Shown here one piece after another: positions 38,586 through 62,600 of a DNA stretch of 64,000 nt. Position numbers and translations under genes: made by a program. The DNA is from Phallus indusiatus (Eukaryota > Basidiomycota > Agaricomycetes > Phallales > Phallaceae): NCBI GenBank assembly GCA_027605045.1, contig JAQFWX010000001.1:992001-1056000 (forward strand). Direction: 5' to 3'. Position 1 is the first letter of the stretch. The number at the start of each line of letters is the position of its first letter. The notes below the pieces were generated by a model. That model was not told the DNA's origin, ran no database searches, and worked only from the letters and a program-made list of their open reading frames with translations.

Positions 38586-38590
38586 TGGAC
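38586..38590. repeat. Target-site duplication TGGAC, left
   Basis: Exact 5-bp match to 47,763-47,767 on the other side of the retrotransposon; 5 bp is the usual Ty3/gypsy length. Confidence 0.95.
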
Positions 38591-38910
38591 TGTAACGCTT
38601 CGTTACTTTTTATAGTGTACCGCGTACGGTACACAAGTTTTATCACGCTGTAGTCCTCACACCAATATAACAGACCAAGGGTGCTGTATTATGATGGTGT
38701 AAAAACAAAATGCGCGTGCTGAATCAGCACGCGCGTAACTACTACTAATGTACAGTTATTACATAATGGCTCGCCGCGTCACGGCGAGCCAGAGGCGTTA
38801 AGCGCCTCTATTATTAGAAGTACTAATAGTAATTACTGCAGAGGGCGAAGCCCTCTGCATATGCCCAAGTGGCATATACTCAATCCACCGCATACGGTGG
38901 ATCCGTTACA
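38591..38910 (-). repeat. 3' LTR (320 bp)
   Basis: Bounded by TGTAACG and CGTTACA. Nearly the whole LTR folds into consecutive hairpins, for example GTGTACCGC/GCGGTACAC-like ends, GCGCGTGCTG/CAGCACGCGC, GGCTCGCCG/CGGCGAGCC, AGAGGCG/CGCCTCT, GCAGAGGGC/GCCCTCTGC and ATCCACCG/CGGTGGAT. It differs from the 5' LTR by one extra T at 38,598-38,600. Confidence 0.95.
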
Positions 38911-38930
38911 TCCTCCCCTTGTGACTTGGA
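38911..38930 (-). other. Polypurine tract of the retrotransposon
   Basis: Reading on the minus strand, AAGGGGAGGA lies directly before the 3' LTR, as expected for the plus-strand primer. Confidence 0.7.
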
Positions 38931-38972
38931 CTCCAAGTCATGGGATCGCGAAGAGGAGGCGTCTGACTGTAA

Positions 38973-40597
38973 TCAGTCAGAGGGATTGCTGTAGTCAATC
39001 TCCATGCTCTCCGAGGCACTCGGATGCGGCGCGTCAAGGTCCTCAGGGGGCCTTAACAATTCCTCGTCCGTCATCTGAATTGGGACGGACGGGGAGTAGA
39101 CCTTGTTAGGCTGGCCTGCCACGATGCTGGCAGGTGAAGCCGACGCATGGACGGCGGGGGCGGACGACTGAGTCGTACGCGCCTTTTGTTGGACGATCCA
39201 GTCCACGGCGCACGCGATAGTCATGCGCGATGCGATTGACATCTTCTCCATTGGCGTATCGTTGGAGAAGGGGCGCGATCACCTCAGTGACGCGTTTGTC
39301 GTCGCTCCATTGGCATGCATGGAGCGAATCACCTCCTCTATGGTAATGGAGGAGGGGGATTTGCACTCGAAGGAACGAGTGTAGCCTTCCATAAGCGTGG
39401 AAGGCAGGTGGGTGGAGGAATTACCCTTACCACCGAGAACTTCTTCCCACACAGTAAGTGCGGGGTCGAGGAGGCACTCAGCCGCCTTCTCGAGGAACTT
39501 GGCACGTACTTCACGAGTACGTGTGACTCGTTTGAGCCATGCGAACACCTCAACATCTTGAGGGTTTAATGATCCATCCGACATTAGTCGGATGTAAGGA
39601 GGACCTGGTTAGGGTCCGCATTCCAAGTATTGATTAAATACTTGATCTCGGGGTGTATGAGTTCTCCCGAGATAGACACCACCGATGGACGGTTGGCGGC
39701 AGCCTCCATAGCTTCAAGCTTGGCGGTCTTTCTCGCCAGGCGACGCTCCTTCATGGATCTGCGCCAGCGAGTCCATGCGTATGAAATACACATGTGAACC
39801 CCCCTGTCATCGGGGTACGTGAACACCGGGGGGTCGGTCCAAACCCGGGTTCCAATCTCGACGAACAATGGTTCGTCGAGGCTGCAGGTGTTATACCATG
39901 CAGTAGGATTGGGGGTGCCAGGCACCAGAGAGTGATCCCCACTAACAGTGGGGTCGAAGCCCTTGACGAAGAAGGGCCATGGGTCCCGGTTGGAGTCCCA
40001 TCCTGGCTTGGTCCGTGGATACGGACCAGAGGGTTTCCTTGGAGAAACCGGGGCAGCATCGCGAGAGCCCGATGCCTTGGTTGCATCAGCGTAGGTACGC
40101 TGAGGTTTGCGTTTGGTGGACGACGCGATGGAGGCGTCGTCATCATAGTCGTTATCATCGACTATGTCTTCCATGTCGTCGTCAGACGACATGTCGTTGA
40201 AAATATCAGGCAAAGGGGCTGCCTGGGATGGTTCAGGCGCTTTATCGGCCTGGTCTCTCGACCGCTTTTTGGAGGTCGATGGGGTAGTCGACGGGCCTGC
40301 CGTCGACGCTGAACGTTCAAGTTCAGCAATGCGAGCTTTCAGCTCGCAGATACGACGATTCGCATCGTCGAGGTGGTCTGTCAAGGACTTGACGTCCTTT
40401 TCAGCTTCTTCTAGACGTTCGTCTAGATGATAGTACTCCCTCCTTATGAAGGGAAAGGCCTTGTAGACGGCCTGCTTGACCATATCATGGTCAAGGATGA
40501 TTGCCCCGCTGCCAGCGGGGCCTGCCAGGTGACTGGCAAAGTCGTTGCACGCAGTGCAACTATCATTGTTATGATAGACGGATATGCATCCGTCCAT
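38973..40597 (-). CDS. Extra 3' ORF of the retrotransposon, coiled-coil protein of unknown function (frame-broken)
   Basis: It lies between the integrase and the 3' LTR in the same orientation. The first block (39,584-40,597) starts MDGCISVYHNNDSCTACNDF and has a heptad-like coiled coil (YYHLDERLEEAEKDVKSLTD, DDANRRICELKARIAELER), a basic stretch KKRSRDQADK and an acidic SSDDDMEDIVDDNDYDDD region. Its stop overlaps the next block's ATG (TAATG at 39,584). That block includes VEVFAWLKRVTRTREVRAKF, with a further shift to HANG..VTEVIAPLLQRYANGED and a last block ending SESMEIDYSNPSD. There is no signal peptide or membrane helix, so it is not envelope-like. About 550 residues in total if frames are joined. 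Confidence 0.6.
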
Positions 40598-40855
40598 CGC
40601 GTCTAAGGTCCATTCGGACCTTTGCAGGGCCAGTTGAGCCTCTGCTTTTTGAACCTACTAACAGGTTGCGGCGTAGGCGACCGCGAGCGTGATCGTTCGC
40701 GTTGCTTTCCTTGCTGTCAGGCATGGGGGTGTTGAGGGAGAAAAGACCGTGAACGGACTTTTGTTATATACTTGGGCGGCCTCATGGAGCGCCCAAGTGA
40801 AAATTACCTCACCGCGTAGCAGTGAAGTGCCAGTGGATCCCTGTGGGTGGGATCT

Positions 40856-42815
40856 TCAAGCAGATCCCCGAGTGGGATCTGGGCGCTTGTTGCTGGTCCG
40901 CGACTCTCCGTGATTGGATAGTCGTGGCAGCTGCCGAGGCTCGTTTACGCCTCGTAATTGCAAGTACTCGTCTAGAGCTTGCAAGTCCTTACAGTTACTG
41001 TAAGGTTCCCAAGTGGTATCCCCAAGGGTCCACTGGACTAGGAACTCGAGATCTTTCTCGCGAGTTCCACTCCAGCGATGAGCTAGGAGTTCCTCGACGT
41101 GCCATTCAGCATCGTCTGGCTGTCCAAAATCATACGCCGTGAGTGTATCGCGGCGTGGAAACCTCTCGTCGTCATTAGCGATGTGAGGTTTAATCAAATC
41201 CACGTGAAATACGGGATTTATGCGACGTTGCTTGAGCTCCTCAGAGAGCTCAAGTTTCACTGTGATATTGTCTTTAGCGGACAATATTTTGTATGGTCCC
41301 ACATAACGCGGGATCAACTTCTTAACTCTCCCCTTGGGGAGGTTGAGATTCCTCGTCGACAGATAGACGAGATCACCCTCTTTGTACTCCGGTGCATCGC
41401 GCCGTGAGTTGTTCGCGTAGTGAGCCTGTTTAACGCGATTGGCTATGATAGCGTCATGCGCTATCATGAGGTTCCACTTTGCCTGTTGGGCAAAGTGTTG
41501 AACACCTTTGAATTTGGTGTTCGTCTCAATTTTCCTTCCCAAACTGGGAAGATAGCCGTAATTGAGTTCAAACGGCGCGAAACCAGTGGTTTCGCTGGTG
41601 CTGCTATTAATAGCAAACTCCACCATTGGGATCCTTTCGGCCCAATCTTTTTGATCGTTCTGTATCACGGAACGAAGTATTTGGCCAATCGAGCGATTGG
41701 CTCGCTCGGTAGATCCATCCGTTTGCGGATGGAACGCCGTGGACATGAGCAATCGTGTCCCCATTAGGCGTTGCAGTTCCTGCCAGAACTTGGCAGTAAA
41801 TCGTGCATCCCTGTCACTCACGATTGAGTCAGGGACACCGTGGAGTCTTACGACTTCACTGAGGTATAACCAGGCTGTGCCCTTGGCGGTCAGCTTGGTG
41901 GTGGTTGGCATCAGACGAACCATAGAGGTCAGTCTGTCAATCACGACGAATAGGAAGTCGTGGCCGTTTGAAACGGGTAATGGACCGACGAAGTCCATTC
42001 CAATCGATTCCCAAGGTTTATTGGGGATCGGGAGTTGTTTTAACAGACCACTGGGGTGATTATTCTCCCTTTGTTGGTCTGGCACGCCCGCAGGATCTGC
42101 AGAACGTATCGATGTCTTCAATCATCGATTTCCACCAGTACGCTTGTCTAACGTACTGAGACGTTTTGTAACGTCCAAAGTGCCCAACAATTTGGTGGGC
42201 CTCACTGATTATAATCTCAGTGATCCTCCTCCCCTTGTAAAATGCGTTATGGGGGACGCATAATACATCGCGGAGGAACTGATTCTTGGTAAAGATCAGT
42301 TGATTTTTAATTCCAAACGCCTTGTGAGCGTTCGGGTTGGCAAGAACCAGCTTAAATACAGGGTCCTTGTGATAACCTTGCTGTATCAGCGAGGTAAATT
42401 CAGCAAAGCCCTCAATTTTGGCTTTAAGAAGCTTGCTGTCTTGCTCCGCACTTAGAGCAAGTATATCCTCATCGGATTGCGCTTCTGTAATATCAGAAGG
42501 TGTAGTATTTGAGGGACCTTCAACTCGAGGTTCCTCTCGTACTCGTGAACGTGTAATAACGTTCACTCTCACTTCATCCCTTCTTTCGATGGGAAGATGA
42601 TCCCCTTCGGGATCAAGTCTAACGTCAGCGTTGACGTATACCTCCGGAGGGTGAACCTCATCCGGAGTGTCCTCTTCGTAATAACGAGAGAGGCCATCGG
42701 CGACATTGTTAGTGACGCCCTTGACATGAATCGTCTCGTAGTCAAAACGAGACAGGTATTCATACCACCGTGCTTGACGCGGTGACATGCGAGGCTGGGT
42801 CTTGAAGTGGACCAT
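40856..42815 (-). CDS. Retrotransposon integrase with C-terminal chromodomain
   Basis: The upstream block (42,060-42,815) covers the end of RNase H (KTQPRMSPRQARWYEYLSRF, NNVADGLSRYY) and the integrase zinc finger (HQIVGHFGRYKTSQYVRQAY, then FCRSCG). After a one-base frame change near 42,065-42,120 the main block reads IGMDFVGPLPVSNGHDFLFV (first Asp), SDRDARFTAKFWQELQ (second Asp) and HPQTDGSTERANRS (Glu), the complete DDE core. GPYKILSAKDNITVKLEL and INPVFHVDLIKPH (GPY/F-like module) precede the chromodomain VEELLAHRWSGTREKDLEFL, VQWTLGDTTWEP. The chromodomain marks it as a chromovirus that may read histone marks for targeting. Confidence 0.92.
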
Positions 42816-43974
42816 GGCCTCGTTGTCCGTTACTAGGTGAATCTACGCCTAGTAGTTTGTCTTCCCACTTGAGGAAGGCTTGAGTACCGCGATGAGCTCA
42901 TGCTCATGGGTGCGGTAGTTGTATTGAGCAGGGGTGAACTTCTTCGAGAGAAACCCTGCTGGCCTACACGTTTGCCATGTAGGCCCTTGCCCATAATAGG
43001 CACCGACGCCACATTTAGAGCCGTCGGTTACGACCCAAATTGGATCTGGGTCGTCCACGTTAATAGGCTTCAAGATAGGAGCTTCGCGTGAGTGCTTTGA
43101 TTGAATCAAAGCACTTGTTCAACAACGGCGTCCATACGAACGGTCTGTTGTTGTACGTACACCCTGATAGTGGTGTAGTGTATGCGGCTACCCCTGGTAG
43201 GTATGCCGCAACGTATTGTACGAGGCCCAGAAATTTCTGGACATCGTTATACGTGCGTGGAGTTCTCCACTCACGTATTTTGTCCATCTTCTCGTGATCG
43301 GGATGGATGCCATCATCGTCGATGATGTGGCCTAAGCACTCCAGTCGCTTAGAGTACAAATCAACTTTACGACTACTTAGGTAAAGTTGTGCTTCTCGCA
43401 GACGCGAGAAGGCATTCTCTAGATGCTGCTGATGCAGATCTATTGTGTTTGAATAGACGAACACGTCGTCTATGTATGCATCCGTCGAACGACCGATGCA
43501 GTCCCTAAATATGTGAGTCATCAGACGTTGAAACGTCGATGGGGCATTACAGTCTCCTTGCTGCATGACATGGCTCTTGAAAGTGCCATAGATGGTGGCA
43601 AAGGTCGTCTTGTGGACGTCCTCTGGGACTATGCGTACTTGCTCGTACGCCTCAGTCAGATCAATTTTTGATCTGTATTTGTGTCTCGCCACGTTCTGGC
43701 GGATGGTTTCCTGGTCAGGGAAGGGCGTTACGTCCTTCTCTGTGTTTTCGTTCTGCAGGCGCAGATCGAACACGGTCCGTAGTGCTAGGACTACGGCTCG
43801 TTTCTGCAGGCAAAGCATAGGGATTGCCTGTGTAGCTACAGTTGGTTCCCACCAGCCTGCAGCTACGTATCGCTGAATCTTTTCAGCGAGTAGCGCTTTG
43901 AGCGCATCCGGACACCTGGGAAGGTGGTACCGGATCTTCTTATTGGGCTCAATAAGAGGAATCTGGTGATTCAC
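42816..43974 (-). CDS. Retrotransposon reverse transcriptase and RNase H
   Basis: RT block (43,060-43,974): VNHQIPLIEPNKKIRYHLPR, RTVFDLRLQNENTEKD, YRSKIDLTEAYEQVRIVPED, FATIYGTFKSHVMQQGDCNA, and the catalytic YIDDVFVYSN; then CLGHIIDDDGIHPDHEKMD and FLGLVQYVAAYLPGVA. The first catalytic Asp is in KIDLTEAYEQ. The RNase H block starts in another frame at about 43,095: PIWVVTDGSKCGVGAYYGQG, KKFTPAQYNYRTHEHELIAV, then VTDNEAMVHF after further shifts at 42,830-42,880. All catalytic acidic residues visible are present, so the only damage is the frame changes. Confidence 0.92.
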
Positions 43975-44681
43975 TTCCCGAAATGGGGAAGTCGGGAAGG
44001 GACAGGACCGAACAGGTCACTGTACTTGTTCTTCCAGTACTCGATGAGTGCTGGGATATTCTCTTCCGTCATCTCAGGGACGGAGGAGCTGGAATGTTGG
44101 GTGCTGGCTAGCACCATCGCTCCTGTTTCAGGAGCGTGTCCAATCACATGGTGATTGGTGTCAATCACCTCGCCGTCGCGGGTGATTGTACCTCTGCTGA
44201 AATCCAGGCAGATGTTGTAGCGTCTCAGGAATGGGACGCCAATGATCACATCATAGTGATCGATGTTGACGATGTCAAAGTACTCTTGGACATTGATACC
44301 TCCGAATTGGATTCGGGTGTACGTTCCATACTGGATGGAAGACTTGCTGCCCTTAACGGCCAGCTGCAGCACGACAGGTTTGTCGAGCTTGAAGGTTCTT
44401 GCCCCGGTGGCAAGAGAGAAATGAGGGGACATGATCATCCCCTGGCATCCACTGTCGACTAGGCAGTGGGCCAATTGGCCATTGACTGGCCAGAAACCCT
44501 CAATGGGTCTCGATGCGTTTCTGTCTCGTGTTGGGGCACGAGAGCTCACTCTAGCCGTATGGTCATAGAGTGGTTCCTTGCTCGTAGCGAGCGAGGACTC
44601 ATTGTCATCCAATGGCGATGACTTGTGGACCGCGAAGTGCAGTCTGCGCTCCTCATACTCGTCACCAATTGTGAGGAGCAT
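43971..44681 (-). CDS. Retrotransposon aspartic protease and pol N-terminus
   Basis: Contains AHCLVDSGCQGMIMSPHFSL with the active-site DSG and, downstream, YDVIIGVPFLRRYNICLDFS, the second conserved hydrophobic-G element of retropepsins. It ends ENIPALIEYWKNKYSDLFGP, RLPHFGK, where one missing base separates it from the RT start (HFGxVNHQIPL). Confidence 0.88.
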   Translation of the reverse strand: MLLTIGDEYEERRLHFAVHKSSPLDDNESSLATSKEPLYDHTARVSSRAPTRDRNASRPIEGFWPVNGQLAHCLVDSGCQGMIMSPHFSLATGARTFKLDKPVVLQLAVKGSKSSIQYGTYTRIQFGGINVQEYFDIVNIDHYDVIIGVPFLRRYNICLDFSRGTITRDGEVIDTNHHVIGHAPETGAMVLASTQHSSSSVPEMTEENIPALIEYWKNKYSDLFGPVPSRLPHFGK

Positions 44682-47358
44682 GTATACACTGGGACCATTG
44701 TCATCATCGTCCCATTGGTATTGGATGCCCTCGTCGTCCTCGACGGGGTCGTTGTGGGCTCGTCTTGGGCCACCTCTTCCTCCACAGCTTGTTCAGCTGT
44801 GGGGTCTTCCACGTTCTCCTGCGGGGCATCGTTCGATGTCTCGCCAGAGGTCTCTTCAACCTCTTCGATACGACCCACATTGGCTCGTACCTGTCTCAGT
44901 CTGGGGCACGCATTTCTGTAATGTCCCACCTGCCCACAGTTGAAACACGTGGGAGGGGTAGTGCTAGTGCGATTGTTCGTACTAGTTGGGGCAGTCCTAG
45001 CGGGCTGCGAGTTATGATTTCTCGAGCTTGATGAGCTCGAGGGGCGATTCCCCAATGGGGAATTGCCATTAGTTCGCGTCTCATGAGGACGCGCAGAGGG
45101 ACCTTGGTTCCTCTGGTTCAAGCGCATATTGTTTGAATGCGCTTGTCTGGCCAAGTTGGTGTGGCTGCTGCTGCTGCCACTACCACTACTGCCACTACTA
45201 CCCGTTGGACGGGTAGTGCTTCCTTGGGAGGCCGTTATCGACCTCCGCTTCTTGAAAGCCTCCTCTACTTGGATGGCGAGTGCAAGAAGTTCCTTAGCAG
45301 ACATCTGCTCAGGACTACCGCCTCTGAATGCTACTTCAGCGGCGAGGCTGTGGTTCAGCCCATCAAGGAACCTCCTCCTGAATGTATAATCATCAGGAGG
45401 GTGCGCTAGTCTGTTGGCTAGCGTGAGTAACGCACTCATGTATTCGTGTACAGAGTGCGATCCTTGCCGTTCGCGTTCGAACTGGATCGCCACCTCACTT
45501 CTCGAGTGGGGTGGGAGGAATCGTTCGTGTAGTCTCCGTAGCGGGGACTAGGGTCCACTCATGCATGGGACGAGTACCTCGTTCCACGTTCTGGGTGAAC
45601 CACTCTTGTGCCAACCCTTCTAGGCGCATGCCTAGAAAGGAGAGTTGCTCTGCTTGGCTGACTTCTCCAAGCAGGTGGTTTACGCGTAGCCAGCGTAACA
45701 GACCCGACACAAAGTTGTCGAAGTCCTCGGCTCTGGACGAGCCGCTATATGTGGGCGGGAGCCCTATCTTCGCTCCTGCTTTCGCAAGGGGCGAGTTGCC
45801 TGGCATCATATCCCTGTTTGCAATCAGGGCTTCTTGAACCATGGCTATGACGCCCTCAAGTACTGTCGTCGTTGAAAGGGTCAAACCTTTCAACACGTTC
45901 CTCATCGAACGGTGTGGCGCGGAGATCCTCGCCATACTGTGGTCGACGAGCGTATCCATCATATGGATCGATACGTGGTGCTTCTGCTGGGTTAGCAGAT
46001 GCTTGCCTCTGCCCATTGGGCTCGGCACTTTGCCTTGGCAGTTGTCTGCCAGGGGTGATGCTCTGTCGTCTGGACGACTTGAGCTTGTGGCTGGGTCTGG
46101 CGATGGGATCCTATCGCCAGTGATGGCATTATAGCCACCTTCAAGCACACGAGCATGGCGGACCGCGTTCATACGCGCGTCCTCGCGATGCGGATCCTAT
46201 CTTGGATGATCCGCATTTGCTGCTCGTTGGGAGTGTCAGTCTCGAGAGAGCCTGCTACAGCTTCCTCGAGCGCGTTAGTGGCCGTCTCCACAGCCCGTGC
46301 ATGCGTACGGATTGCTCTGTCGGAGAGTAGCCTTGCTATCCTCTGGTATTCGAGGGCAGCTTGGGCGACCACTTCAGCATCCTCTCGTGGGGTGCTCCAT
46401 TTCGCGACTGGTTCACCAGTCGCGTGGCTATCTCGGTATCGATATAGTCACCAACCGCGTCAGACTCGTGAGGCGGTTGTCTTGTGAAACGGTGCATTCG
46501 TCTCACTGTTTCTCTGCCAGCCTCTATTTCGGGGCCGGGGTTTCTAGGAGCTGTATATGCTGTAGCTCCTTGAGTAGGAGGTCTATCAGGACGCGTACTC
46601 GGTCCTGGGGTAACGTTCTGGGAACGTTGTCTGGTGCCTGTTGGTGCAGGCTCAGGGGATTGGGAATTACCAGCTGTCGCTGGTGACGGACTGGCATATG
46701 TCGGTCCCGTCGGTGTAGCAAACCTAGCTTGTGGGGCTGGGTTTGTGAATTGATAGGCAAGGCGACTCGTCGGCCCTGCTGGTCTAGGACGAGTAGATCC
46801 CGTACCTGGTGCAGGCGGGTCTACCGCTCTGCTTTTTCCTTTGTCAGAGCGTGCTCGTGCAGGCTCTGCTTCAGGAGACAAGTCTGTTGTCCTGACTTGG
46901 TCCCTGTCAAAGCCCGTGGTAACAGGCTCTGGCTCGGGGTTTTCAACTCCTGCGTTGACATTCTCGATTAATCGAGCTAGTCTCTGCAGTTCTGACGGGG
47001 ACATATTCCCGTTCCTCACGCCATCGAGTAACGATGCGTGAACAGCGTTCATCGTCTCGTCCCTTCGGATGGACCTGTCGCTCCTGACGCTAAGTCTGGA
47101 GCGACCAGATGCTACGGACTTTACGTCCTCATCTTCTTCATCAGCGAGTTGGGGCTGATGTTCCATCGTCTGCGACGCAGGACGAGTGGGATTTTGTGTT
47201 GATGCATCCACTCTCTCCCATGTGGATGACTCTCCTTCGAGGGTTCCTTCCCTAGACGGGTCGGGATTTTCGGTTTGCACTGGCCCGGGTGGGTCAGGCT
47301 GATTGGAATCAGGTGTACCACGATCTGGTGCACTCTGACTCCTGGTAGTAGGAGCCAT
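44546..47358 (-). CDS. Retrotransposon gag (four frame blocks)
   Basis: ATG at 47,358: MAPTTRSQSAPDRGTPDSNQ. The N-terminal block (46,336-47,358) is Pro/Ser/Arg-rich. A one-base change at about 46,370 gives VVAQAALEYQRIARLLSDRA (46,169-46,372), and another at 46,170 gives the capsid-like block (45,495-46,172) with SSRAEDFDNFVSGLLRWLRV and LEGLAQEWFTQNVERG. The last block (44,546-45,493) has HSVHEYMSALLTLANRLAHP, the zinc knuckle CFNCGQVGHYRNAC (CX2CX4HX4C) and an acidic tail, and shifts again near 44,740 into pol. Confidence 0.88.
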
Positions 47359-47443
47359 TGAATCCTCCTGTAATAGGAAGGGTTAATTTCGCTTGCTTAA
47401 TACAGCGGCGGGTTGTTTTTAACGCCTTTGGTGTTAAAAAAGA

Positions 47444-47762
47444 TGTAACGCTCGTTACTTTTTATAGTGTACCGCGTACGGTACACAAGTTTTATCACGC
47501 TGTAGTCCTCACACCAATATAACAGACCAAGGGTGCTGTATTATGATGGTGTAAAAACAAAATGCGCGTGCTGAATCAGCACGCGCGTAACTACTACTAA
47601 TGTACAGTTATTACATAATGGCTCGCCGCGTCACGGCGAGCCAGAGGCGTTAAGCGCCTCTATTATTAGAAGTACTAATAGTAATTACTGCAGAGGGCGA
47701 AGCCCTCTGCATATGCCCAAGTGGCATATACTCAATCCACCGCATACGGTGGATCCGTTACA
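47444..47762 (-). repeat. 5' LTR (319 bp)
   Basis: Same sequence as 38,591-38,910 except one missing T near its left end. Just inside it (47,400-47,443) lies an inverted repeat TTTTTAACGCC/GGTGTTAAAAA rather than an obvious tRNA-complementary primer site, so self-priming is possible (inference). Confidence 0.93.
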
Positions 47763-47767
47763 TGGAC
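47763..47767. repeat. Target-site duplication TGGAC, right
   Basis: Exact copy of 38,586-38,590. Confidence 0.95.
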
Positions 47768-48429
47768 ATTGTTCCGGTCGAATCACCGTGTCCTTGACAA
47801 AACATTGGAACTTCCCAAGCTACGAATTCTGAGAGAAACAAATGAAGTAAGTTCTCTTTTCATTTTTGTATTCAAATTTTATTTTACAACTTACTAGGAA
47901 AATTCTGATTCCACCGCAAGATGCTCGTCTTTAAATCCCAAACTTCTCTCCATGTCCCCCGGGCCGTCTTCTACTTCTAAGCCCACAACAGCGCAGTCTT
48001 CACGGTCGAGTTCAATAAAACCGTCGACAGCTCAATCTTCGAGGTCAAGCTCCGTTAATCCGGTAAGTAGTGCATTTGCTAAGTATCTAAATTTGTTATA
48101 ACTCTCAATCAGGATCCGATAAACCTCGTGGGCCATAATACCAGCGGAAGCCGTACGAAATATCCAGGTCGCCCCATCCCCAATGATGGCCGTGACGATA
48201 GCCAGGATAATGTAGATCTAGTCGATGATCTAAACATTCCTGTAGCTCAGAGACGAGCCAAAAGAAAGGCTGTTCTTAACCATGCATTTATTAAAAGCGG
48301 GCCCTAGTATTTTTTTATAGAAATTTCCAGATAAAATAATATATGTCTTACAATGTCCAATCACTCAATTTAAGTCCGGATTACTCGCCGTTAACAGTTC
48401 CATTCCAAAGCCGCACTTTACATAGGTTA

Positions 48430-48960
48430 TCGGGTTATTACCATTCTAAAGGTGTTATGTTTTAATCTAAATTATTGGGGTCGTGGGAGTAATTTATTAT
48501 GGTTCTATGGATAATTCCATAAATTTTCGTCTTTAAAATGAGCAAAACGCAGTTGTGGATGGGTATAAAATAAAAATTGGGACACTCCGGGACAGTGTTG
48601 GGATTATGAGCCGCCTTATTACTCTTCTAAAGGTGTCTTGCTTGAAGTACAATTTACTCGGTTCCGGGAATAATTTATTATGAATCTAAGAATTATTACA
48701 AGCTTTTTCGTCTTTAAAATGAGTAAAACGCAGATGTGGATGAGTATAAAATGAAAATTGAGACACTCCGGGACAGTGTCGGGATTATGAGCCGCCTTAT
48801 TACTCTTCTAAAGGCGTTTTGCCTTAAATACAATTTACTGAGTTTTGAGAATAATTTATTATGAATCTAGGGAAAATTACAAACTATTTAATCTTTAAAA
48901 TTAGTAGAACGCAGTTGTGGATGAGTAGAAAATGAAAGTTGTCCCCCTCCGGGACAGTGT
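48430..48960. repeat. Tandem repeat of about 182 bp, three copies
   Basis: TTATTAC(C/T)(A/C)TTCTAAAGG begins at about 48,434, 48,617 and 48,797, and ACTCCGGGACAGTGT occurs at about 48,583, 48,764 and 48,945. Each unit contains TCTTTAAAAT, AAAACGCAG and a near-palindromic ACACTCCGGGACAGTGT. The last unit runs into a region with further CGGGACA motifs (48,950-49,030). It sits at the right end of the 11.4-kb insertion and could be a subterminal transposon repeat. Confidence 0.75.
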
Positions 48961-49224
48961 CGGGGACAATCTGGGACACTGCCGGCAAAGATCCGACTCT
49001 GCGGGACACTTATGGTCAGTCGCGGGACGGTCACGGTTCGTCACACGACGTTATTATGGCATGCACCTTTTTTTTCCGTGGTTTGCCATGTGTAACTTGA
49101 GGTTGATTAGGTCCCCTGGATAGAAACTACATATACCGCAGGATTAGATGCTAGAATGTACCATGCTGTTGACCCTCAATACGAGGGTCAACGAAGGACA
49201 TTGCATCCATTTGAGTATGATTTA

Positions 49225-49614
49225 CAGCAGTTTGCATTACGTAAGTCCGGCACTCGTTTTGTCAAGATAATCGCTGAGACCTTGCGAACGCAATAGCTCG
49301 TCCAATTTTGAAGATTTTTACTTACTGTTTCTTTAGGATATGTTCAGATATATTATATCTAGTGCATAATGTACTTTACCAAGCTTATAAATGTGTATTG
49401 CAAAGTTTGACCTTTTCTCCCCAAAAAACAGCAATGGGGAAAACCTCAAAGTAACTCATAAAAATTGGATATTGCACTAGATACAGTATTTTTGGACATA
49501 TTTTGAAGAAACAGTAAGTTAAAAGTCTCAAAATTGCACGAGCTATCGCGTTCGCAAGGTTTCGACGATCGTATTGACAAAACGAGTGCCGGACTTACGT
49601 AATGCAAACTGCTG
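49225..49614. mobile_element. MITE with long terminal inverted repeats and TA target duplication
   Basis: A 390-bp element. Both ends start CAGCAGTTTGCATTACGTAA and GTCCGGCACTCGTTTTGTCAA, and imperfect complementarity extends about 140 bp inward, so almost the whole element is inverted repeat. Flanks are TA (49,223-49,224 and 49,615-49,616). U3 has the uninterrupted site at about 61,729-61,735 (GATTTAATGTTATCG). TA duplication and structure suggest a Tc1/mariner (Fot/pogo-like) derivative. Confidence 0.88.
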
Positions 49615-49680
49615 TAATGTTATCGAGCATGTTGCCTTCGCGTCAATCCTGATTTGTTCGAAACATCTTCGACCCTTTAC

Positions 49681-50328
49681 TAATGATTTGCCTGGCTCTG
49701 GCTCAGGCCAGGGCCAAGCCGGGGACAAGCCGTTTAAAGCCAGGGCCAAGCCAAGCTAAAGCCGCCTCAGGCCATGCTCACTGGCCTGGCTTTGGGATTG
49801 GTCAGGCCAGGGCCAAGCCGTCAGGCCACGGCATCTCGGCTGCTGCCCAGACGGCACGATCTTCACCTACAAGCTCATGTAGTAATAGGAAAATTTTTTT
49901 AAACAACTTTTCGAACACTTAACTATCACCACATATGCCTCCAAAAACCAAAGATATACCTGCTGCTCGTGTAGGAAGTACCCGCACTCGTATTCCCACT
50001 GCAAAATTAGCCGATCCCAATAATGCCAATAGGCGCTGGAAGATTTGGTGAAGGAGAAAAGGAGGATGAAGAGTTTTTTTCAGTGATTTTGAATGAAGGA
50101 GGAGGAGAATATTAGTATTGCAAAATATAAGTAATTAAAGTCACTGTGCTAGAATTTCTATACAGCGTGAATTTCTGATATGTGAGAGCCAAGGCCAAAG
50201 CCAAAGCCGGCCAGGCTAAGCCAGAGCCAGATTACTCTGGCCTGGCCCGAGATTTTGAGAGGCCAAAGACAGAGCAAGCCAGGCCAAAGCCGCTGGCTTC
50301 AGGCCAAGCCAAGGCCAGGAAATCATTA
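49681..50328. mobile_element. Non-autonomous hAT-like element with 8-bp duplication
   Basis: Ends TAATGATTTGCCTGGC and, inverted, TAATGATTTCCTGGCC. The 8-bp duplication CCCTTTAC is at 49,673-49,680 and 50,329-50,336. Subterminal regions are packed with GGCCTGGC/GCCAAGGC motifs in both orientations. Inside, at 49,935-50,051, a 38-codon ORF (MPPKTKDIPAARVGSTRTR...) followed by AAGGAGGATGAAGAG-type codons looks like the decayed N-terminus of a transposase. Confidence 0.85.
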
Positions 50329-50580
50329 CCCTTTACAGGATGAACCAGTATATGGTTATGTGTACGCGCTCGTCGGTATTAATATTCTGGGCAAGCGATT
50401 TTCCAGTTACGAGATACAGGATATATTACAAGAGAAGGCAGGGTTGAGAGCTAGTGGAGTGCCAAACATATGTATCTTGTATGTAATATCTCGCTGTGCC
50501 AGTCATCATTGACCGTTAGACCATCAGGTGTACCTATGCAGCAAGGATGGTTACGCTGACATCATTACACATAATGATAG

Positions 50581-51084
50581 TATGTTTGTCAATATATCTT
50601 TTATAGGAGATAGTATTGTCTGGTTCGGAGCTATCTTAGCATCGGAACCTCAGCATGCTGGCTCTCTAGCCCAATACTCTATTGATCACGGATCGATGAT
50701 CAATTTCGCCCTCCCAAGTTCACCTCTAAATTCCTCAATTGATATTCAAAACGTTCCTTTCTTCGAGAGCGCCTTGGAACAAGGATCACATACACTACTT
50801 GTCCTTTATCTGGGAAACGACTCAATGACTCCTAACATTGAGCAATCTCGTGGTCACAAATGGATCAGATCCAACAAATCCGTTCGGGTCAGCGACATTA
50901 GCACCATTGCCTGCATTATCTTCCATTCCAATCACGCGAAGCGATAATAGGCCAGGAAGTACCGTCGGCACTACCGTAGGAGCGGCGGTAGGAGCCATCG
51001 TAGTGTTGGCTTTTACCTTTACTCTTCTATTTATGCACCGGCGGCGGTGGCTCAGAAGCAGGCGGGACGGGACGGGGAGATGAG
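50581..51084 (+). pseudogene. Surface protein gene copy 4, 5'-truncated and frameshifted (unit U2)
   Basis: The homology to copy 3 starts abruptly in FVNISFIGDSIVWFG at about 50,585, fused to leader sequence ...CATAATGATAGTATG. Exon 1 and the first ectodomain half are gone. A 2-bp deletion (CTCCTAACATTG versus CTCCTCTGACATTG at 50,829) shifts the frame before the second-half end, and a GGGAC duplication near 51,070 shifts it again after the transmembrane helix (VGAIVVLAFTFTLLFMHRRR). Confidence 0.85.
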
Positions 51085-51836
51085 CAATGGTGGTAACGGA
51101 GCCAGGTATATCAACATAGAACCCTCTGCCATGCAGTCATCGCAGTTCGTTTCCAAGACGGTCTCACCATCCCTAGCCATAGGAAAGTAGCGACTGTCTA
51201 GCGAAAAAACGTGTCGCGCGCGTCGTATACCGTGAGTCGATATAGCGCGTTTCGGCACTTTCCATGCGTAGGAGCACATCACAACTAGTGTTGTCATTCA
51301 ATACAAAAGTAGCAATGTTTCTTTACCTCAGTCTCTGAGTAAACCGTTGTTGAACCACCTTCGACATACTCCGAGAAATAGGCTTTACATTTGACATAGA
51401 TAACTGTATTTATTATTATAATTGAAAGGCAAATTAAAACAGATAAATGCTCTGTACATTAAGCATATTTGAACAAAATCCTGGGGCGTGCCAGGCCATG
51501 ATATAAACCTTTGGTTTATATGTTTAAAAGAGGGTGGCTTTTTCGAGAATTGCAATTATGAACTTATGGTATGTGAAGAACGCAGTGATGTTATGGTTCA
51601 TATACGTTCATACGCCATCCAGATAGGCCGCTAGAACCTATTATACTCGGAGTTGGACAGGAAAGTTTCTTCGACAAAAGAATGAGAATATATAGGCTGC
51701 TATTACAACATATTTATTTCTTAAATAAACCAACTCCCTAGAAGAAGCATATAAATAAAAAAACCACATTGAGCATATCCTTATGTCCCCATAGCCTTCC
51801 TTTATAATTTTCCCAACACCTTTAATAATCAGACCT

Positions 51837-53404
51837 TTAAACAGAGACTGATGTACCAAGTTGTTGGAGTGCCTTCCGGAACTGGGTGGTCCGTAACGAT
51901 ATAGATATGGTACCTGTTTGGGTTTGAGGGGAACTATACTGACGAAGTCGTAATAAATAATCGGTGATTAAAATGACCCAAAAACTGGAATGAAGATGAA
52001 ATAATGGGTCTGGGGACTTAAAATTAATGACTTTACGTATTTTGAAAAGTACTTGCCGCATCCTGATGGAACTTAAGGTTAATTGGATTGTCAATTGAAA
52101 AATTTTATGGGAATACTCACTGCTACGTCGATAGCTAACCGCGTGATAGACACAGAGTTTAGAACTAACGGGACAAGAGTCGAGGCCATAACGAAGCTTT
52201 ATTCCAAGACTGAAGTTAAGCACGGTTAAAGCATTTCATTGAATACTCACAAGCATCGCACTATACCTAACGTTTACTGTATGTGTCTTCAGTCCCATTA
52301 TAAAGTTTCCCTATTACGTACTTTCTGTCAAGACCAGGGAAACAAAATTATTGCCACCCTGAAAATTTAATCCAGCTGTCCGCTTTGAGTTCCATGTGCT
52401 CCAAGCGTTCCACAAGCATATGCCTAATATAAAAGCATCTGTACACGTGGTGATAATGAGAGCGATCACACCATAGCCTAAGATCTTTGAGGACACGAAA
52501 TTTGAGCTGACCCGTGAGGTGTTGACGTACCGCTAGGACCGTCTCAGTCGTTGCAAAAATGAAACAAAAATGAAACAAAAAAAAACCCCTTTACCTCCAT
52601 ATGCCAAAACAACAACTAGATGATAACTGTATAACTGCGGGAGTCTAAGATGGTCACTTCTAATTTCCCGGTCGGAGTCTTCTTCACCGTTATATAAATT
52701 TAAAACCACCCCTGCTAAATAACCTAGGATTAGGGCCACTTGCAAGATTCTATTCCCTTGGCATAATGGATATGCTGGAACGATCAACACGCCTAATATA
52801 AGAAGTAAATAACTCCCAAATTCATTCAGTTAAATGGCCGCCCACCTTGGATGCCCATATACCATAGAAGATAAAAAGAACCTTCTATATAAGAGACAGT
52901 GATGTTTGTCGACCTGATTTGAGGTTCATTCGACTCTTCTGAATTTGTTCGAAAAATCACAAGACTCACAATTTCTAAAATAACATGAGCAATGCTCATC
53001 AAAATTTTCTGAATATACTCTTCTGCTTACTGATTGCATCGACACCTGGGTTAAAAGTGAGAGGGCCTGATTAACCAAACCGCCGTATCTTGCAGTCAGG
53101 TAAAACAGAGAAAGAAGACGAAATGGCTTTAACCATATGTGTTCTATTTCTCTTGAGATATTAAGGACACTACTATACACCATGAGTGCTGAAAGAGGCG
53201 TTTATTGGGCATAGCAGTGAGAATCATCATAATTTTCAAGAATCGAAACTGAGTTTTACCGGAAGCACTGATAACCAACGCATATTCAAAACGGCTTATG
53301 TCCCCAGATCATATGTATGTGAGTATTAGATGGAATCCAAGGAGAGAGTATACATACAAAGTAGTACTGAGAAGGTAAATCGGGACAACGGTGCCGTCGT
53401 TCAT
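51837..53404 (-). CDS. DUF6533-type multi-pass membrane protein, copy 3 (unit U2)
   Basis: Start at 53,404 (MNDGTVVPIYLL), the position matching copy 2. Exons give SSVLNISREIEHIWLKPFRL, LSLFYLTARYGGLVNQALSL, then VPAYPLCQGNRILQVALILG, YLAGVVLNLYNGEE, LGYGVIALIITTCTDAFILG, ICLWNAWSTWNSKRTAGLNF and the last exon SFWVILITDYLLRLRQYSSP to ALQQLGTSVSV (TAA at 51,837). No interrupting stop was found in the exons inspected, although its surface-protein partner is dead. Confidence 0.68.
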
Positions 53405-53834
53405 GGGCGTAATCAACAGTCCAATGTGACATAGGACATTAATGATTAGTTCAATTTAACCTTGTGCTATACTGAGATATATACCATCAGGTATATGAGC
53501 TCCTTTATGATGCGACATGGACGGAAGGAGGAAAAAATCTACTAGGGGTATTCAACTCAATCAGTTGAGACGAATCTGGGCATGTATATTTATGTCTACA
53601 CACTTCACAACTGTTTGATGGGGCGTTAAGTGCCGAATACCTCAAGTCTGAGATATACGTCATGGATATTGAATAAACCCACCAGAAAATGATGAGGGTT
53701 CCATCTACCCATGTCACGAGTTGACCGAGCATACGAATGTCTGGCGATAGGTTAAGCCAACTGAATCTGTTTTGGTGACATCCCGGCGCACTATGGGGCA
53801 AGAAGAAACTCAAGTCCTGAACATTCTCACTTCA

Positions 53835-54225
53835 TTGAGAAGGCGCCAAGCACGGCACCAATATCCTGCTGGGCGGGCTCCTTGTTCGGCGGATTCGGAC
53901 ACACTGGGTAAACAAGACTCTATTATGGTGATGGTATGAATGTCTGTAGTTACGTAATGGTAATGTAAATGAGAATATTGAGGGGGGAATGGAGGGAAAA
54001 TAAAACTGAAAGATGTGTGAACAATGAACAGAGAGTGTATGTATCAGGTGTTCGCGCGATGATGGTCGGTGGCAAGCCGCAAGAGCAGATGAAGCTGAGC
54101 GCCCGGCAGCTCACCTGGCGGTCTCCTGTTCCGCGTCCCGAGCTCAGCTTGACCCCCAACCACCACGGACACCACCTCGGGGAGCGAGACGAGGCAGGAT
54201 ATCATTTAGTGTTGTTCCAAGACTT
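53835..54225. other. U2-specific insert, partly GC-rich, of unknown origin
   Basis: U1 and U3 pass from CTCATTTCATT (60,421-60,435) directly into tail sequence. U2 has about 390 extra bp, with a markedly GC-rich core at 54,050-54,190 unlike its surroundings. On the minus strand CCGCCAG|GTGAGC is a perfect splice-donor context, and on the plus strand GAAGGCGCCAAGCACGGCAC precedes an ACACTGG|GTAAAC donor context. Captured exon fragments are possible; no protein was recognised. Confidence 0.5.
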
Positions 54226-55247
54226 CCAGTCCAGATCAAGTGGTGGAAAGGTCCTAATGGCGTACACCTCAAGATTCTCGATTCGCATAATTCAGGGAGA
54301 AATAGGGGTAGTGTACTGTTTCGAAAAAAAAAACTAAGTGCGTGCGGCGGCATTGTCGGTGTTAAGGATCAGATCACAGCATAAAACAAAAAGACCTGAA
54401 CTATCTGAACAAGGGGTCAATTCAATCAAATTAGATCGTTTGAATCATTCTTGATATATCAATTGTTTCTTTTGAGCAGCCGTTTTTAGTGGAAAGTCGC
54501 GCCGAGGAAACAGAGCCTTGTATTTCTTCGAGTTTGGCGATGTTTTGGGTCTGGAAGCGAAGGGTGTTGAGCTGAAAAGTATCAAGTTATGCACATTTCC
54601 ATCCGCCATGTGAATGGTGTGGCTGGCCAAATAGTTAAGTTCAAAATTCAAACTCCGACTTGGGACACACGCCTCCATCTCTCCCAGGGTCGCCGCTGAA
54701 GCCCACATCTCGCATTTTCGACATTGACTTCTATACCAATCATTCGCCACATCATTACCAAATATTCGGTGCATTACACCTCTTGTTAAGAAAACCTCAG
54801 ATACCAAATGCCTGACACGGACTATCCGCTCTGACATCCCAACAGAATCAAGGTTGCATAACGTTGGTTATGGGACAAACCTGCAGTTTTGGGTTTAACA
54901 CCGCAGTTGACATTACGCCCTCAGTTGTCATCAAACCTTAGGTACCGCTCAAATTTTATTTGGTTGTCCATTCTCGAACAGACTAATGTAATAAATTGAC
55001 TATAGAGCGTGGTTTGGGGTGACGTGCAGCGTTTAGAGAAGATATGCTCTAGAGCACCATCTGAAAACCTGTATTTGTCCATCCTTCCGTGCCGAATAGG
55101 CTGTGTAATCCACCGCAGGTTTCATTGTCGAGACAACTTTAACGCCAATGATGGATCTTACGCAACTCAGATAGGCACAATTACACAATCAGCTGAACCG
55201 GATACACACTAGTAGTATGCGGTACCTTTTTTTCCGTGGTTTGCCAT

Positions 55248-55600
55248 TGTGAGGGAGCGTAGCTCCCTACGCGTGTTTGCTTAGCGCTCGTCGGAGTCTA
55301 TTTTTACTCATCCTTTGTTCGCGTCCACTTCGTGGACACTCCTTTCTTTCGTCATTCCTATGCTGTTCCTTTATCTTTCCTTCCTTTATTCTCATTTCTT
55401 TATTTCTTCCTTTATGTTATGCTTCGTTTATTTGACTTAGTCTACCTGTATTTAACCCCTCCTCATTTTCATATAGATCATCGTTTTATCCTCCGGTTTT
55501 GAGGCATAGGCCTTTTCTTGAGATTTCTCGGTCACCCCTTTTGCGCGATTTTATCGATTCACTGACGTCTTTTGCTGTTAGCGCAGCACGCCGTCTTATA
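55248..55600. mobile_element. Probable solo LTR or LTR-like insertion
   Basis: 353 bp beginning TGTGAGGGAGCG, inserted in GGTTTGCCATGTGTAAC and flanked by CCAT (55,244-55,247; 55,601-55,604). U2 and U4 have the uninterrupted site. It contains hairpins AGGGAGC/GCTCCCT and GTCCAC/GTGGAC, a pyrimidine-rich core and TATTTAA. The 3' end (CTTATA) does not end in CA, so the type is uncertain. Confidence 0.55.
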
Positions 55601-56696
55601 CCATGTGTAACTTTAAAGGTTGATTAGGTCCCTTGGATAGAAGCTACATATACCGCAGGATTGGATGCTAGAATGTACCATGCTGTTGACCCTCAATACC
55701 AGGGTCAACGACAGACATTGCATCCATTTGAGTATGTTTTGATATTATCGAGCATGCTGCCTTCGCGTCAATCCTGATTTGTTCATAGACTTCGACCTTT
55801 ACCTGACAAGTCATGGGTCAGCCAAAGCGACTTGCGTTCTCACTAGGGGTGGCTTGGTTCGATGTGGGGCTGAAAACTTTTCACAAGGTTCAATATCGGC
55901 TGATAAATTCCCAGATAAATTTCGTTTTCACGGCATGATGAGCCCAACTCACTTCAGAGGATGGACAGTATAGGGCTATGTGTACGCGCTCGTCGGTATT
56001 CTGGGCAAGCGATTTTCCAGTTACGAGATACAGGATATGTTACAAGAGAAGTCAGGGGTGAGAGCTAGGGGGTGCCAAACATATGTATCTCGTTGTGCCA
56101 GTCATCATTGATTGTTAGACCGTCTCGTCCCGTCCAGGACCGTCAGGTGTATCTATGCAGCAAGGATGGCTACGCTGGCGTCATTGCACATAATGATAGT
56201 ATGTGTACATACGCAAAATCACGGTATAAATCATAAATCTCCACTATCAGGCCCTTTTATTTATCAGCTCAACTCGGTGCCTTTTCTTCAATGGAGCCTG
56301 CAAATGATCAGCAATTCACCTATAAGGATTTCAAGGATATTATATGACTATACAACGTGTGGCTCATTGTGACGATCTATGATCCCATAAACTGTTGAAG
56401 CATAAAAGCGGATGGCTTACAGAGCGTGCCTTTCCAGCTCTTGAAGCTTGAATCTTCATGCGCAATTTCACTTATAGTAGAGTCTTTTTTCGTTTCATCT
56501 AGTATTGACGGTATTAAGGATCATCATCTCGAATGAGGATCAATACCGACGAGAGATATTCATCGATTCATCCATCACGCTTCCATGCAACGGCATAGAC
56601 GAGCTCAAGGTCACTGGACTTATAATCAATAGCAATCATTCACCAAAATGGAGCTGCCTCAGACAGCACCACGATTCTTATTAAGAAGAAAACGAA

Positions 56697-57970
56697 ATAT
56701 CTCGTAAAGTCGTCGTGAGCAACCAAGATAAGTCAAATACGATATGAAGGAGAATGGATTCCTACCAACTCATCGCTCTATTCGACACTGGTCTCCTCGG
56801 GACCATCGCCTCCTTTGGAGAACATTCTTCACGAAGCAACATCAAACAATAGCAGTTTTACCTTTGCATTCAACGGTAGGTCATTATCTCGTACAAACAT
56901 GTAGTTGTAAAATGATACCTTTATTCCTAGGGACTTCAGTTGATGTATTCGGTCTGCTTGACAATAGTTCGCCGAGTCAAGTGGAAGTGTGATGCTCTAT
57001 TGATGGTGCTTCTATTCATCTTACAACAACCTTAGAGGAAAACGATGCACCTCTATGCTCGTCTCCAATCCTTCCAAATGGACCTCATGAACTCGTTGTT
57101 AATGTTACTTCGACAAACACGCACTTCTTGGATACCTTACAATATGCGCCATCAGACGATGCTCTGTTTGATAAAGCTACAGTTATTCAATTTCACCCTC
57201 CCAAGTTCACCTTTAAATACCTCGGTTGATATTCAAACGTTCCTTTCCTCGCGAGCGCCTTGGAACAAGGATCACATACGCTGCTTGTCCTTTATCCGAG
57301 AAACGAATCAATGACTACTCTAAAATTGAGCAATATCGTGGTCACAAATGCATCAGCTCTAACAAGTCCGTTCAACCCACCCATATTATCACCATTGCCC
57401 TTCCTTTCCAATCACGCGAGACGATAATAGGCCAGGAAGCACCGTCGGCACTGCGGTAGGTGCCATCGTAGTGTTGGCTTTTACCTTTGTTCTTCTGTTT
57501 ATACACCAGCGGCGGTGGCTCAGAAGCAGGCGGGACGGGGAGAGGAGCAATAGTGGTAACGGAGCCAGGTATATCAACATAAAACCCTCTCCCATACAAT
57601 CGTCGCAGTTCGTTTCCAAGGCGATCTCACCGTTGACGTCCAATCACCGGCACCCCTCTCAGATCCTATACACATCCTCTCGCAGCCGGACATGAGTCAA
57701 ACTTTCAGTCCAGTATTGCCGTCAAACGACCCAGTCTCGTTCAATCGTGATGAACATCTAATTAAACAGGTTAAGGATTCCACTCTCAACTCCCCCAAAT
57801 CAGTCCGATTCACCATGTTCCTTAACACCAAAAGATTCCACCCCAGCAGGCGAAACAGCTTCTGCCAGTGTTGTCATTCAACCCGAGATCAGCAGTGTTT
57901 CTCCACCCCAGCCTCTGAGTACAGCTGCTGTTGAACTACCTCCAGCGTATTCCAAGAAATAGCCTTTACA
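56697..57970 (+). pseudogene. Surface protein gene copy 5, decayed (unit U3)
   Basis: Aligned with copy 3. The start ATG is ATA (56,697), an extra base follows in AGATAAGTCAAATACG, and CGA is TGA after GTGGAAGTG (56,990). A deletion of roughly 200 bp joins AAAGCTACAGTTATT to CAATTTCACC (57,185), and several smaller indels occur. The transmembrane helix and a longer 3' tail (57,620-57,950) than in copy 3 remain recognisable, so the tail of copy 3 is secondarily shortened. Confidence 0.88.
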
Positions 57971-58425
57971 TTTTATGTATATAACTGTATTTATTACAAA
58001 TAAAAGGCAAATTAAAACTGATAGATGCACTGTGCGTTAGGCACATTTTAAACAAAATCCTGGGGCGTGCCGGGTCATGATAATATAAACCTTCGGTTCA
58101 AATATGTTTAAAAGAGGTTGACTTGTTCGAGAATTGCAATTATGAGCTTATGGTATGTAAATAATGCGGAGATATTGTGGTCCATACGCCATCCAGATAG
58201 AACCTGCTTGGAGTTGAACAGGAAAATTTCATAAATTGAAAAGTGAATGAGAATATAATCTATAGGCTGTCATTACAACATCTGTCTTAAGCAAACCAGC
58301 TCCCTAGAAGAAGCATATAAAAAACCACACTGAGCATATCCTTATGCTGTCATAGCCTTCCTTTATGATTGTTCCGGCACCCTTTAATAATCAGACCCCG
58401 AAATAGAGACTGATGTCCCAAGTTG

Positions 58426-59960: not shown

Positions 59961-60633
59961 GGGTATAATCAAAATCCAATATAACATACGTGTAACATTA
60001 GTCCAATTTAACCTTGTGCTACAGTGAGATATATAATTGATACCATCAGGTATATGAGCTTCTTTATGACGCGACACCGATGGATTCGGAAAGAGGCAAT
60101 CACCTGCTAGTGTCATTACTCGATCAACTGAGACATCTGGGCATGTATATTTATCATGATGTCTACACTTCACGACTGTTCGATGGGGCGGTAAGCATAA
60201 GTATTCTACCGAATACTTCTAGTCTGAGATATAGGTCATGGATATTGAATAAACTCACCAGAGAGTGGCAGAAAATGATGAGGGTTGCATCTACCCATGT
60301 CACCAGTTGATTGAGCATACGAATGTCTGGCGACAGGTTAAGCTGGATGGTCAACTGAATAATTTGACTCCGTCTTAGTGACATCCGCACTATGGGGCAA
60401 GAAAAAGATCAAGTACTGAAAATTCTCATTTCATTTATCACTTACAATTTTTTCAAGCGGTGGTCCGGTGGAAAGGCCTTAATGATGTACACATCAAGCT
60501 TCTTGATATCTGCGGTAGACATACTCGCATATTTCAGGGAAAAATAGGGGTAGTGTACTGTGCCGAAAAAAAAAACGAAGTGCGTGCGGTGGCGTCGTCG
60601 TCGTCGTCGGTCTCAAGGATCAGATCACTTGAC

Positions 60634-62559: not shown

Positions 62560-62600
62560 CAGCGACACTTTTGTGATACCCTACCAGCATCTGTTGAGTC

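Follow-up and report, generated by a model that had tools for sequence, protein, structure and literature searches.

How does a retrotransposon come to carry short perfect hairpins at about ten times the chance density along its whole length, reading frames included? The question is raised by a 64,000-nt stretch of the Phallus indusiatus genome (contig JAQFWX010000001.1, positions 992,001 to 1,056,000, forward strand; "the window"). On its minus strand, at 38591..47762, lies a whole long terminal repeat (LTR) retrotransposon, assigned from its sequence to the Ty3/Gypsy chromoviruses and called family A below. It is hairpin-dense throughout. A hairpin is defined here as a perfect inverted repeat with a stem of at least 6 bp and a loop of 1-8 nt, and the chance level for the window is taken from 500 dinucleotide-preserving shuffles. 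The element holds 140 hairpins, compared to 14.46 ± 3.76 in the shuffles (maximum 32). There are 56 with a stem of at least 8 bp (shuffles 0.81 ± 0.90, maximum 5) and 9 with a stem of at least 10 bp (0.05, maximum 2). The LTR (320 nt) alone has 9 hairpins of at least 6 bp against 0.78 in shuffles, and its stems reach 11 bp.

Host DNA is near chance. The left flank (38.6 kb) has 74 hairpins against 70.9 ± 8.7 (1.0 times chance), and the right flank (47763-64000, 16.2 kb) has a mild excess, 48 against 29.7 ± 5.7 (1.6 times). Both values are far under that of the element, which is consistent with the statement in a first-pass annotation that the host exons on either side do not show the pattern, and the comparison of counts proposed there gave the same picture. 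The tiling that it described is real, but a hairpin in "nearly every 20-45 nt" was too strong: hairpin centres are spaced by 66 nt on average (median 45.5, maximum 305), 28% of the element's bases are inside hairpins, and 37% of 45-nt windows hold a whole one. Eight of the nine hairpins that it quoted lie where it placed them; the remaining one, GCCAATC/GATTGGC, is at 41,684-41,701, not at 41,694-41,711. The host DNA has a small cluster at 22796-22940, where the stems of three hairpins measure 8, 10 and 8 bp.

Within the element, density is 28 hairpins/kb in the LTR, 27.6 in an extra frame downstream of pol (the densest of the coding parts) and 16.3 in the 3' untranslated part. It is 13-20 in the protease, reverse transcriptase (RT) and integrase frames, 5.9, 13.3 and 9.9 in the gag frames, and 4.1 in the RNase H part. 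The hairpins in the reading frames are made by codon choice. Each open frame was compared with 40 synonymous-codon shuffles, and the 2,020-aa gag-pol frame of another family A copy (A39) has 72 hairpins against 11.4 ± 3.5. This conclusion rests on that excess; the first-pass annotation had made the same proposal, and the contrary outcome that it named, a density no higher than in synonymous shuffles, was not obtained. Two other family A frames have 54 against a mean of 8.6 (A31) and 47 against 8.4 (A38). In the sister family B, described below, the values are 61 against 11.1 ± 3.2 (B32), 32 against 6.6 (B40) and 23 against 4.9 (B36). Frames of two further families, C and D, give 5 against 10.1 (C33), 16 against 10.8 (C34), 25 against 12.3 ± 3.2 (C37), 9 against 8.5 and 6 against 3.0 (C41), and 1 against 3.0 and 7 against 4.1 (D35). 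Simple composition as the cause of the density is ruled out by the dinucleotide and synonymous shuffles.

The stems come at no visible protein cost, since amino acid identity between A39 and B32 is not lower within family A stems (0.846, 149 codons) than outside them (0.779, 793 codons). The comparison is confined to the 1,074 codons, out of 1,946 in the alignment, that were locally similar enough to be aligned reliably. Codon positions 1 and 2 differ at 0.107 of sites in stems and 0.146 outside; third positions differ at 0.624 and 0.567, respectively. Codons within stems are less typical than elsewhere in three of four arm sets. A preference of stems for a codon register was not detectable.

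A search of the genome with RT found at least 132 places, fragments included. All 30 family A loci of 3.9 kb, which are spread over many contigs, carry 42-60 hairpins each. Family B is a sister Ty3/Gypsy chromovirus family with 82% RT identity to family A. When units of one LTR plus the internal part are counted, family A has 131 hairpins against 14.0 (z 28.5) and family B has 89 against 11.7 (z 24.9). A more diverged family B copy (L036) has 44 hairpins over 9.7 kb, although this locus may include some foreign DNA. Units of family C have 7 against 11.0 (C33), 16 against 11.8 (C34) and 28 against 13.0 (C37, z 3.8), and the D35 unit has 22 against 11.6 (z 3.0). Eleven further loci (four Copia, two C and five D) are not dense (1.3-4.1 hairpins/kb, z -0.6 to 2.6). 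Apart from A and B, the Gypsy and Copia sequences of this genome that were counted range from 0.6 to 2.2 times chance. The first-pass annotation had also named, as a contrary outcome, the same density in unrelated chromoviruses and host genes; neither host DNA nor the other LTR families share it. Among the elements tested, only families A and B have the dense trait, and some relatives show a weak excess. The copies of each family amount in effect to a single sequence type.

Among protein relatives, 609 passed the cut-off, and the best-scoring one has 63% identity among the 120 best. Those with about 51-63% RT identity include proteins of Trametes pubescens, Sparassis crispa, Pisolithus microcarpus and Armillaria ostoyae. 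Relatives were absent from viral contigs in two scans, and genome contigs yielded one distant relative (L053), a Gypsy RT at 38% identity with 14 hairpins against 8.8 ± 2.9. The contig encoding this RT belongs to the assembly of a cyanobacterium from a lichen (Rhizonema sp. PD38), in which it is probably fungal contamination.

The hairpins are reflected in predicted folding. The folding excess, expressed as minimum folding energy difference (MFED), was computed for 350-nt fragments with 8 dinucleotide shuffles per fragment. On the RNA strand it is 41.3, 38.1 and 42.9% for three family A copies and 15.7 and 15.1% for two family B copies, positive in 26 of 26 fragments of each. It is lower on the opposite strand (A 33.0, 31.7 and 31.4%; B 12.0 and 12.2%). 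Family C copies have 2.5, 6.2 and 10.0% on the RNA strand, D35 has 6.1%, and host DNA has -2.2, -0.3 and 2.0%. Eight other LTR loci, taken as stored, have 3.6-13.6%, so that family B is barely above the top value. Predicted pairs spanning at most 25 nt make up 76% in A39, 65% in B32, 41% in C33, 40% in host DNA and 46% in a shuffle. In published work (PMC7642675), MFED is 7-9% for hepatitis C virus (range 7.5-10.7), 15% for SARS-CoV-2 and 23.4% for the highest coronavirus quoted; the predicted excess of family A (38-43%) is above all of these, with fragments and shuffles similar to the published ones but not identical.

Most stems, as judged from the aligned sequences, arose or turned over separately in families A and B, and a minority is shared. 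The two families are 70% identical over 3.6 kb. Of 242 pairs in family A stems of at least 7 bp, 120 are unchanged in family B, which is the share expected from identity squared and the reason for proposing separate origin or turnover; in 13, both partners have changed and form a different Watson-Crick pair, and the remaining 109 are disrupted. Only 6 of 31 such stems keep all or all but one of their pairs. In the reverse direction, 126 of 220 pairs in family B stems are unchanged in A (0.57, slightly above 0.49), and 91 stem columns are shared by A and B against 57 by chance.

Among copies, the window element was compared with two other family A copies, and all four double-changed stem pairs are compensatory, while slid controls averaged 0.2 and never exceeded 2. 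Between B32 and B36, stems differ slightly less than the rest (31/561 compared to 268/3,487, p 0.08). A lower rate of change in stems defined in the window copy (63 sites against about 91) vanished when stems were defined in either sequence, and it was not used. Gains and losses were counted in 17 of 30 family A copies, with sites of fewer than 12 usable copies dropped and a null model of transitions only; the presence of a hairpin in a minority of copies is only a proxy for gain. For shared variants, the ratio of minority-present to minority-absent hairpins is 14:22, 12:13 and 7:11 (stems of at least 6, 7 and 8 bp), while the neutral null is about 1:4.8, 1:3.6 and 1:5.2, respectively. Polarising variants by family B is unreliable because the share of stem variants is equal for either polarity.

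The shape of the stems is the most puzzling part. Family B has 67, 58, 16 and 5 stems of exactly 5, 6, 7 and 8 bp, against 25.8, 6.5, 1.4 and 0.4 after shuffling. Its stem-ending hazard is 0.48 at 4 bp, is similar at 5 bp (0.46) and rises to 0.73 and 0.76 at the next two lengths, close to random extension. In family A, the hazard jumps from 0.39 to 0.72 at 8 bp, the jump being weaker in A39 (0.40 to 0.61). These features point to a threshold: the stem-length cut-off is at 6 bp in family B and at 8 bp in family A. Loops of 4-8 nt are nearly equally frequent in the 6-bp stems of family B (11, 9, 12, 13 and 10), and the numbers then fall to 5, 2, 1 and 1. Of 93 family B stems of at least 6 bp, 76 end in an outermost A/T pair, in every codon phase, and the 5-bp stems are without this bias. 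Longer stems are less GC-rich in B (rho -0.31, p 4e-5), a trade-off that family A does not show. A stem sequence shared among family A stems was not seen. In 8-bp stems of family A, the fifth pair is A/T unusually often (29/36); this bias is weaker in A39 and was not used.

What could have produced this? We favour, with a probability of about 0.4, selection at the level of the lineage that makes the transcript pair with itself locally and throughout, similar to the genome-scale ordered RNA structure (GORS) of RNA viruses. The whole sequence of two sister chromovirus families would have been remodelled, mainly at synonymous positions, into a series of small Watson-Crick hairpins, each about 20 nt long. 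As the lineage replicates, selection would act on local self-pairing, regardless of the stems that provide it, and the self-paired RNA would be kept inaccessible to small-RNA-guided or antisense pairing. Such selection would explain the codon choice, the absence of a visible protein cost, the free turnover of stems and their spread over the LTRs. The trade-off between length and GC content in family B is what a stability target would give. The less typical codons in stems, the short span of most predicted pairs, the surplus of gains among shared variants and the compensatory double changes also speak for it. RNA as the target is supported by the lean of the folding excess to the RNA strand and by stems of 8 bp or longer that include G-U pairs, which in family B are enriched 3.9-fold on the sense strand and 1.9-fold on the other. 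Perfect stems of at most 12 bp are short for Dicer. Shielding from RNA interference (RNAi) is possible because domain matches to Argonaute, RNA-dependent RNA polymerase and RNase III are present in the genome. The role of RNA as the relevant molecule, selection as the cause and shielding as the benefit are all inferences.

Several observations weigh against this reading. If sense RNA is the target, G-U pairs are expected to be tolerated. Near-stems with one mismatch do not favour them: the ratio of G-U to C-A is 6:22 in A, 8:16 in A39, 6:13 in B32 and 6:14 in B40, with shuffle expectations of 2.28:3.42, 2.43:3.27, 1.87:3.00 and 1.90:3.02, respectively. Just outside the stems, G-U is not favoured either, and the flanking mismatches follow composition. 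Among stems broken between family A copies, the ratio is 27:51 (summed over overlapping comparisons); this C-A lean of stem breakage on the sense strand suggests a strand-asymmetric mutation process. In family A, stems including G-U differ little between strands (4.2-fold and 3.7-fold). Covariation over 30 family A copies is not above slid controls (3 compared to 2.0). No constraint is visible on existing stems between family A copies, because stems, when defined in either sequence, change at the same pace as the remaining sites: third positions differ between A39 and the window copy at 23 of 423 sites in stems and 90 of 1,576 in the rest. Private variants are near neutral (gain:loss 5:12, 3:8 and 2:4). 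Some other LTR loci have a folding excess of up to 13.6% without dense hairpins. Finally, the length cut-offs, the sharp loop limit and the A/T ends in family B are not predicted by stability alone.

The first-pass annotation had named RNA packaging, resistance to RNAi, translation control and template switching as possible causes, without choosing among them; the last of these has its own variant here. In this explanation, reverse transcription in the A/B clade would switch template on the nascent strand and perfect imperfect palindromes, and purifying selection would keep the mostly synonymous results. It fits a trait that spans LTRs, untranslated parts and frames, peaks in density in the LTR and the extra frame, and is found in one RT clade only among those tested. 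Short loops predominate, as do A/T outermost pairs in family B, which fraying at the return point could give. Stems that are not more conserved between family A copies than other sites and gains that are relatively frequent among shared variants also agree with it, and compensatory pairs can arise by palindrome correction too. The arms are its difficulty, as no clear arm-by-arm footprint was seen: an excess of one-arm rewriting was not detectable between A and its sister family B, the divergence of arms being no more unequal than that of random neighbours (A 0.149-0.175 compared to 0.179). In A, divergence from B is slightly higher for the 5' arms (0.335) than for the 3' arms (0.278; 30 stems), in the direction of minus-strand copying, but the direction is reversed in B (0.229 compared to 0.263, 33 stems). 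Nor are codon positions 1 and 2 more changed in stems, and N-terminal gag diverges faster than pol yet has a low hairpin density. Stem-touching variants among the 30 copies are no commoner than under the neutral null (52 of 210 shared variants against 0.245). We consider this mutational drive rather improbable.

The shape features are taken at face value by the proposal of a protein, either of the element (Gag, RT or integrase) or of the host, that would bind or process hairpins in single-stranded cDNA or RNA. The minimum length would be 6 bp in family B and 8 bp in family A, and the element would be selected for many such sites. The hazard jumps followed by nearly random extension, the near-equal loops of 4-8 nt with their sharp drop, the A/T ends in every codon phase and the lack of a clear G-U preference all speak for it. 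A candidate protein was, however, not identified, no common stem sequence was seen in A, the GC-length trade-off in B points to stability, and the cut-off is weaker in A39, with each family in effect a single sequence type. In this specific form, the proposal is unlikely. That some process counts base pairs (in B, 6 bp or more with a loop of 4-8 nt and a terminal A/T pair; in A, 8 bp), with the ruler residing in the replication machinery or in a hairpin-binding protein and not in RNA stability, we regard as tentative at best. Hairpins as landing sites for the integration of LTR elements are a very improbable explanation: one family A copy (L009) carries a 396-bp insert at the loop of a 7-bp hairpin, but only 1 of 11 inserts in family A copies is within 5 nt of a hairpin centre, and the idea was rejected on this count. 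To an artefact of statistics, assembly or composition we give next to no weight. The element is richer in GC than the host (0.527 compared to about 0.43), but the excess holds against composition-preserving and synonymous shuffles, all 30 family A loci on their many contigs carry the hairpins, and other families in the same assembly do not reach the level of A and B.

Selection for self-pairing relates the elements most closely to GORS. As described in a GORS study (PMC3950689), RNA viruses share with families A and B a folding excess over the whole sequence, made of many short stem-loops within coding constraint, and pairings that are poorly conserved between relatives, as in the 120 of 242 pairs above. 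GORS belongs, in contrast, to the genomes of positive-strand RNA viruses, while the window element is a fungal LTR retrotransposon; the folding excess of A is larger than the viral values given above, and the stems here are mostly Watson-Crick, show a length cut-off and do not clearly prefer G-U. By analogy, the A and B elements may work like GORS, and we do not file them as a member. The property is thus of a known kind, and what is new is the class of element, the larger size and the stem-length cut-off. Template switching associated with quasipalindromes would likewise turn near-palindromes with short loops into perfect hairpins, but it is a process of single hot spots, whereas the whole element is affected here and a clear arm-copy footprint is missing. 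Structures similar to miRNA precursors in maize genes and transposable elements are also local hairpins, tied to small RNAs; according to that report (PMC10760457), they resemble pre-miRNA folds and are a possible liability, unlike the perfect stems of at most 12 bp that tile the element here. The Ty3/Gypsy chromoviruses of Agaricomycetes share the domain order, a chromodomain-like C-terminus, a 5-bp target-site duplication (TSD) and TG..CA LTR ends, but relatives in this genome with an RT identity of 47% or less are without dense hairpins where tested. The first-pass annotation knew of no description of such tiling, and we found no report of it for an LTR retrotransposon among the best-matching titles and first parts of abstracts, a coverage in which subscription papers are mostly not included.

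The limits of the element given in the first-pass annotation match its TG..CA LTR ends and the TSD (TGGAC at 38586..38590 and 47763..47767). Because the element is on the minus strand, the 3' LTR is on the left (38591..38910) and the 5' LTR on the right (47444..47762). The two (about 320 nt) are direct repeats whose sole difference is one 1-nt indel near the left end in the window. The 3' LTR is preceded by a purine tract, AAGGGGAGGA (38911..38920, minus strand), whose role is presumed to be that of such tracts in LTR elements generally; LTR ends, 5-bp duplication and purine tract are thus all present. For the primer-binding site, the region after the LTR was compared with the LTR only, giving a complementarity of at most 9 nt.

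The coding part of the window copy is broken into several frames, all on the minus strand. Two gag-region frames from the list of open reading frames have no Pfam match, the N-terminal one at 46336..47358 (5.9 hairpins/kb) and the other at 45495..46172 (13.3). The C-terminal gag frame (44546..45493) has a zinc knuckle (PF00098, E 1.4e-5). It is followed by the aspartic protease frame (43971..44681; PF08284, E 1.1e-6; 19.8 hairpins/kb over 43,975-44,681), the RT frame (43060..43974; PF00078, E 2.2e-22; 15.3) and the integrase zinc-binding frame (42060..42815; PF17921, E 9.8e-13). RNase H has no Pfam match of its own in the window element; the start of the last frame, a part without a Pfam match, is presumably the end of RNase H. 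The frame at 40856..42121 (15.8 hairpins/kb) covers the integrase core, SH3 and a chromodomain-like region (PF24626, E 2.3e-13). Its integrase core match (PF00665) has 29.2 bits, under the curated cut-off of 32.6, and its chromodomain match (PF00385, E 2e-5) has 24.8 bits, just under the cut-off of 25.1. The Pfam order along the minus strand is PF08284, PF00078, PF17921 and PF00665. Because of the matches to zinc knuckle, protease, RT, integrase zinc-binding domain and SH3, with integrase core and chromodomain under their cut-offs, the element is classified as a Ty3/Gypsy chromovirus. The extra frame (39584..40597) is coiled-coil-like, with coiled-coil Pfam matches below the cut-off. Its counterpart in family A locus L039 is the second long frame (599 aa), and family B copies have frames downstream of pol too. 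An 8-bp hairpin at 43453..43473 runs across the codons I-D-D-V-F-V-Y of the RT active-site region, and the longest perfect hairpin (12 bp, loop of 1 nt) is at 43091..43115.

Beside the element, at 48435-48977, a 181-nt unit is present in three tandem copies (100, 81 and 71% identity). Inserts of 390-397 bp with short overlaps resembling target duplications are found in seven family A copies (L009, L012, L020, L023, L024, L030 and L038). Because the insert in L009 starts with TGTCAGGG and ends with CCCTAACA, family A copies have probably been targets for insertion by one or more other LTR families.

If our reading is true, no other coding sequence among those compared pairs with itself locally and throughout to the extent that family A does, a trait that would have evolved in one clade and become much stronger in one of two sister families in the same genome. 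Why some RNA genomes are structured everywhere would then be testable in a fungus that holds relatives without the trait in the same genome. If, instead, the reverse transcriptase is responsible, genes would be acquiring palindromes through a process of mutation. With selection for self-pairing as the cause, these elements would be a natural system in which to ask whether self-pairing protects transposons from RNAi.

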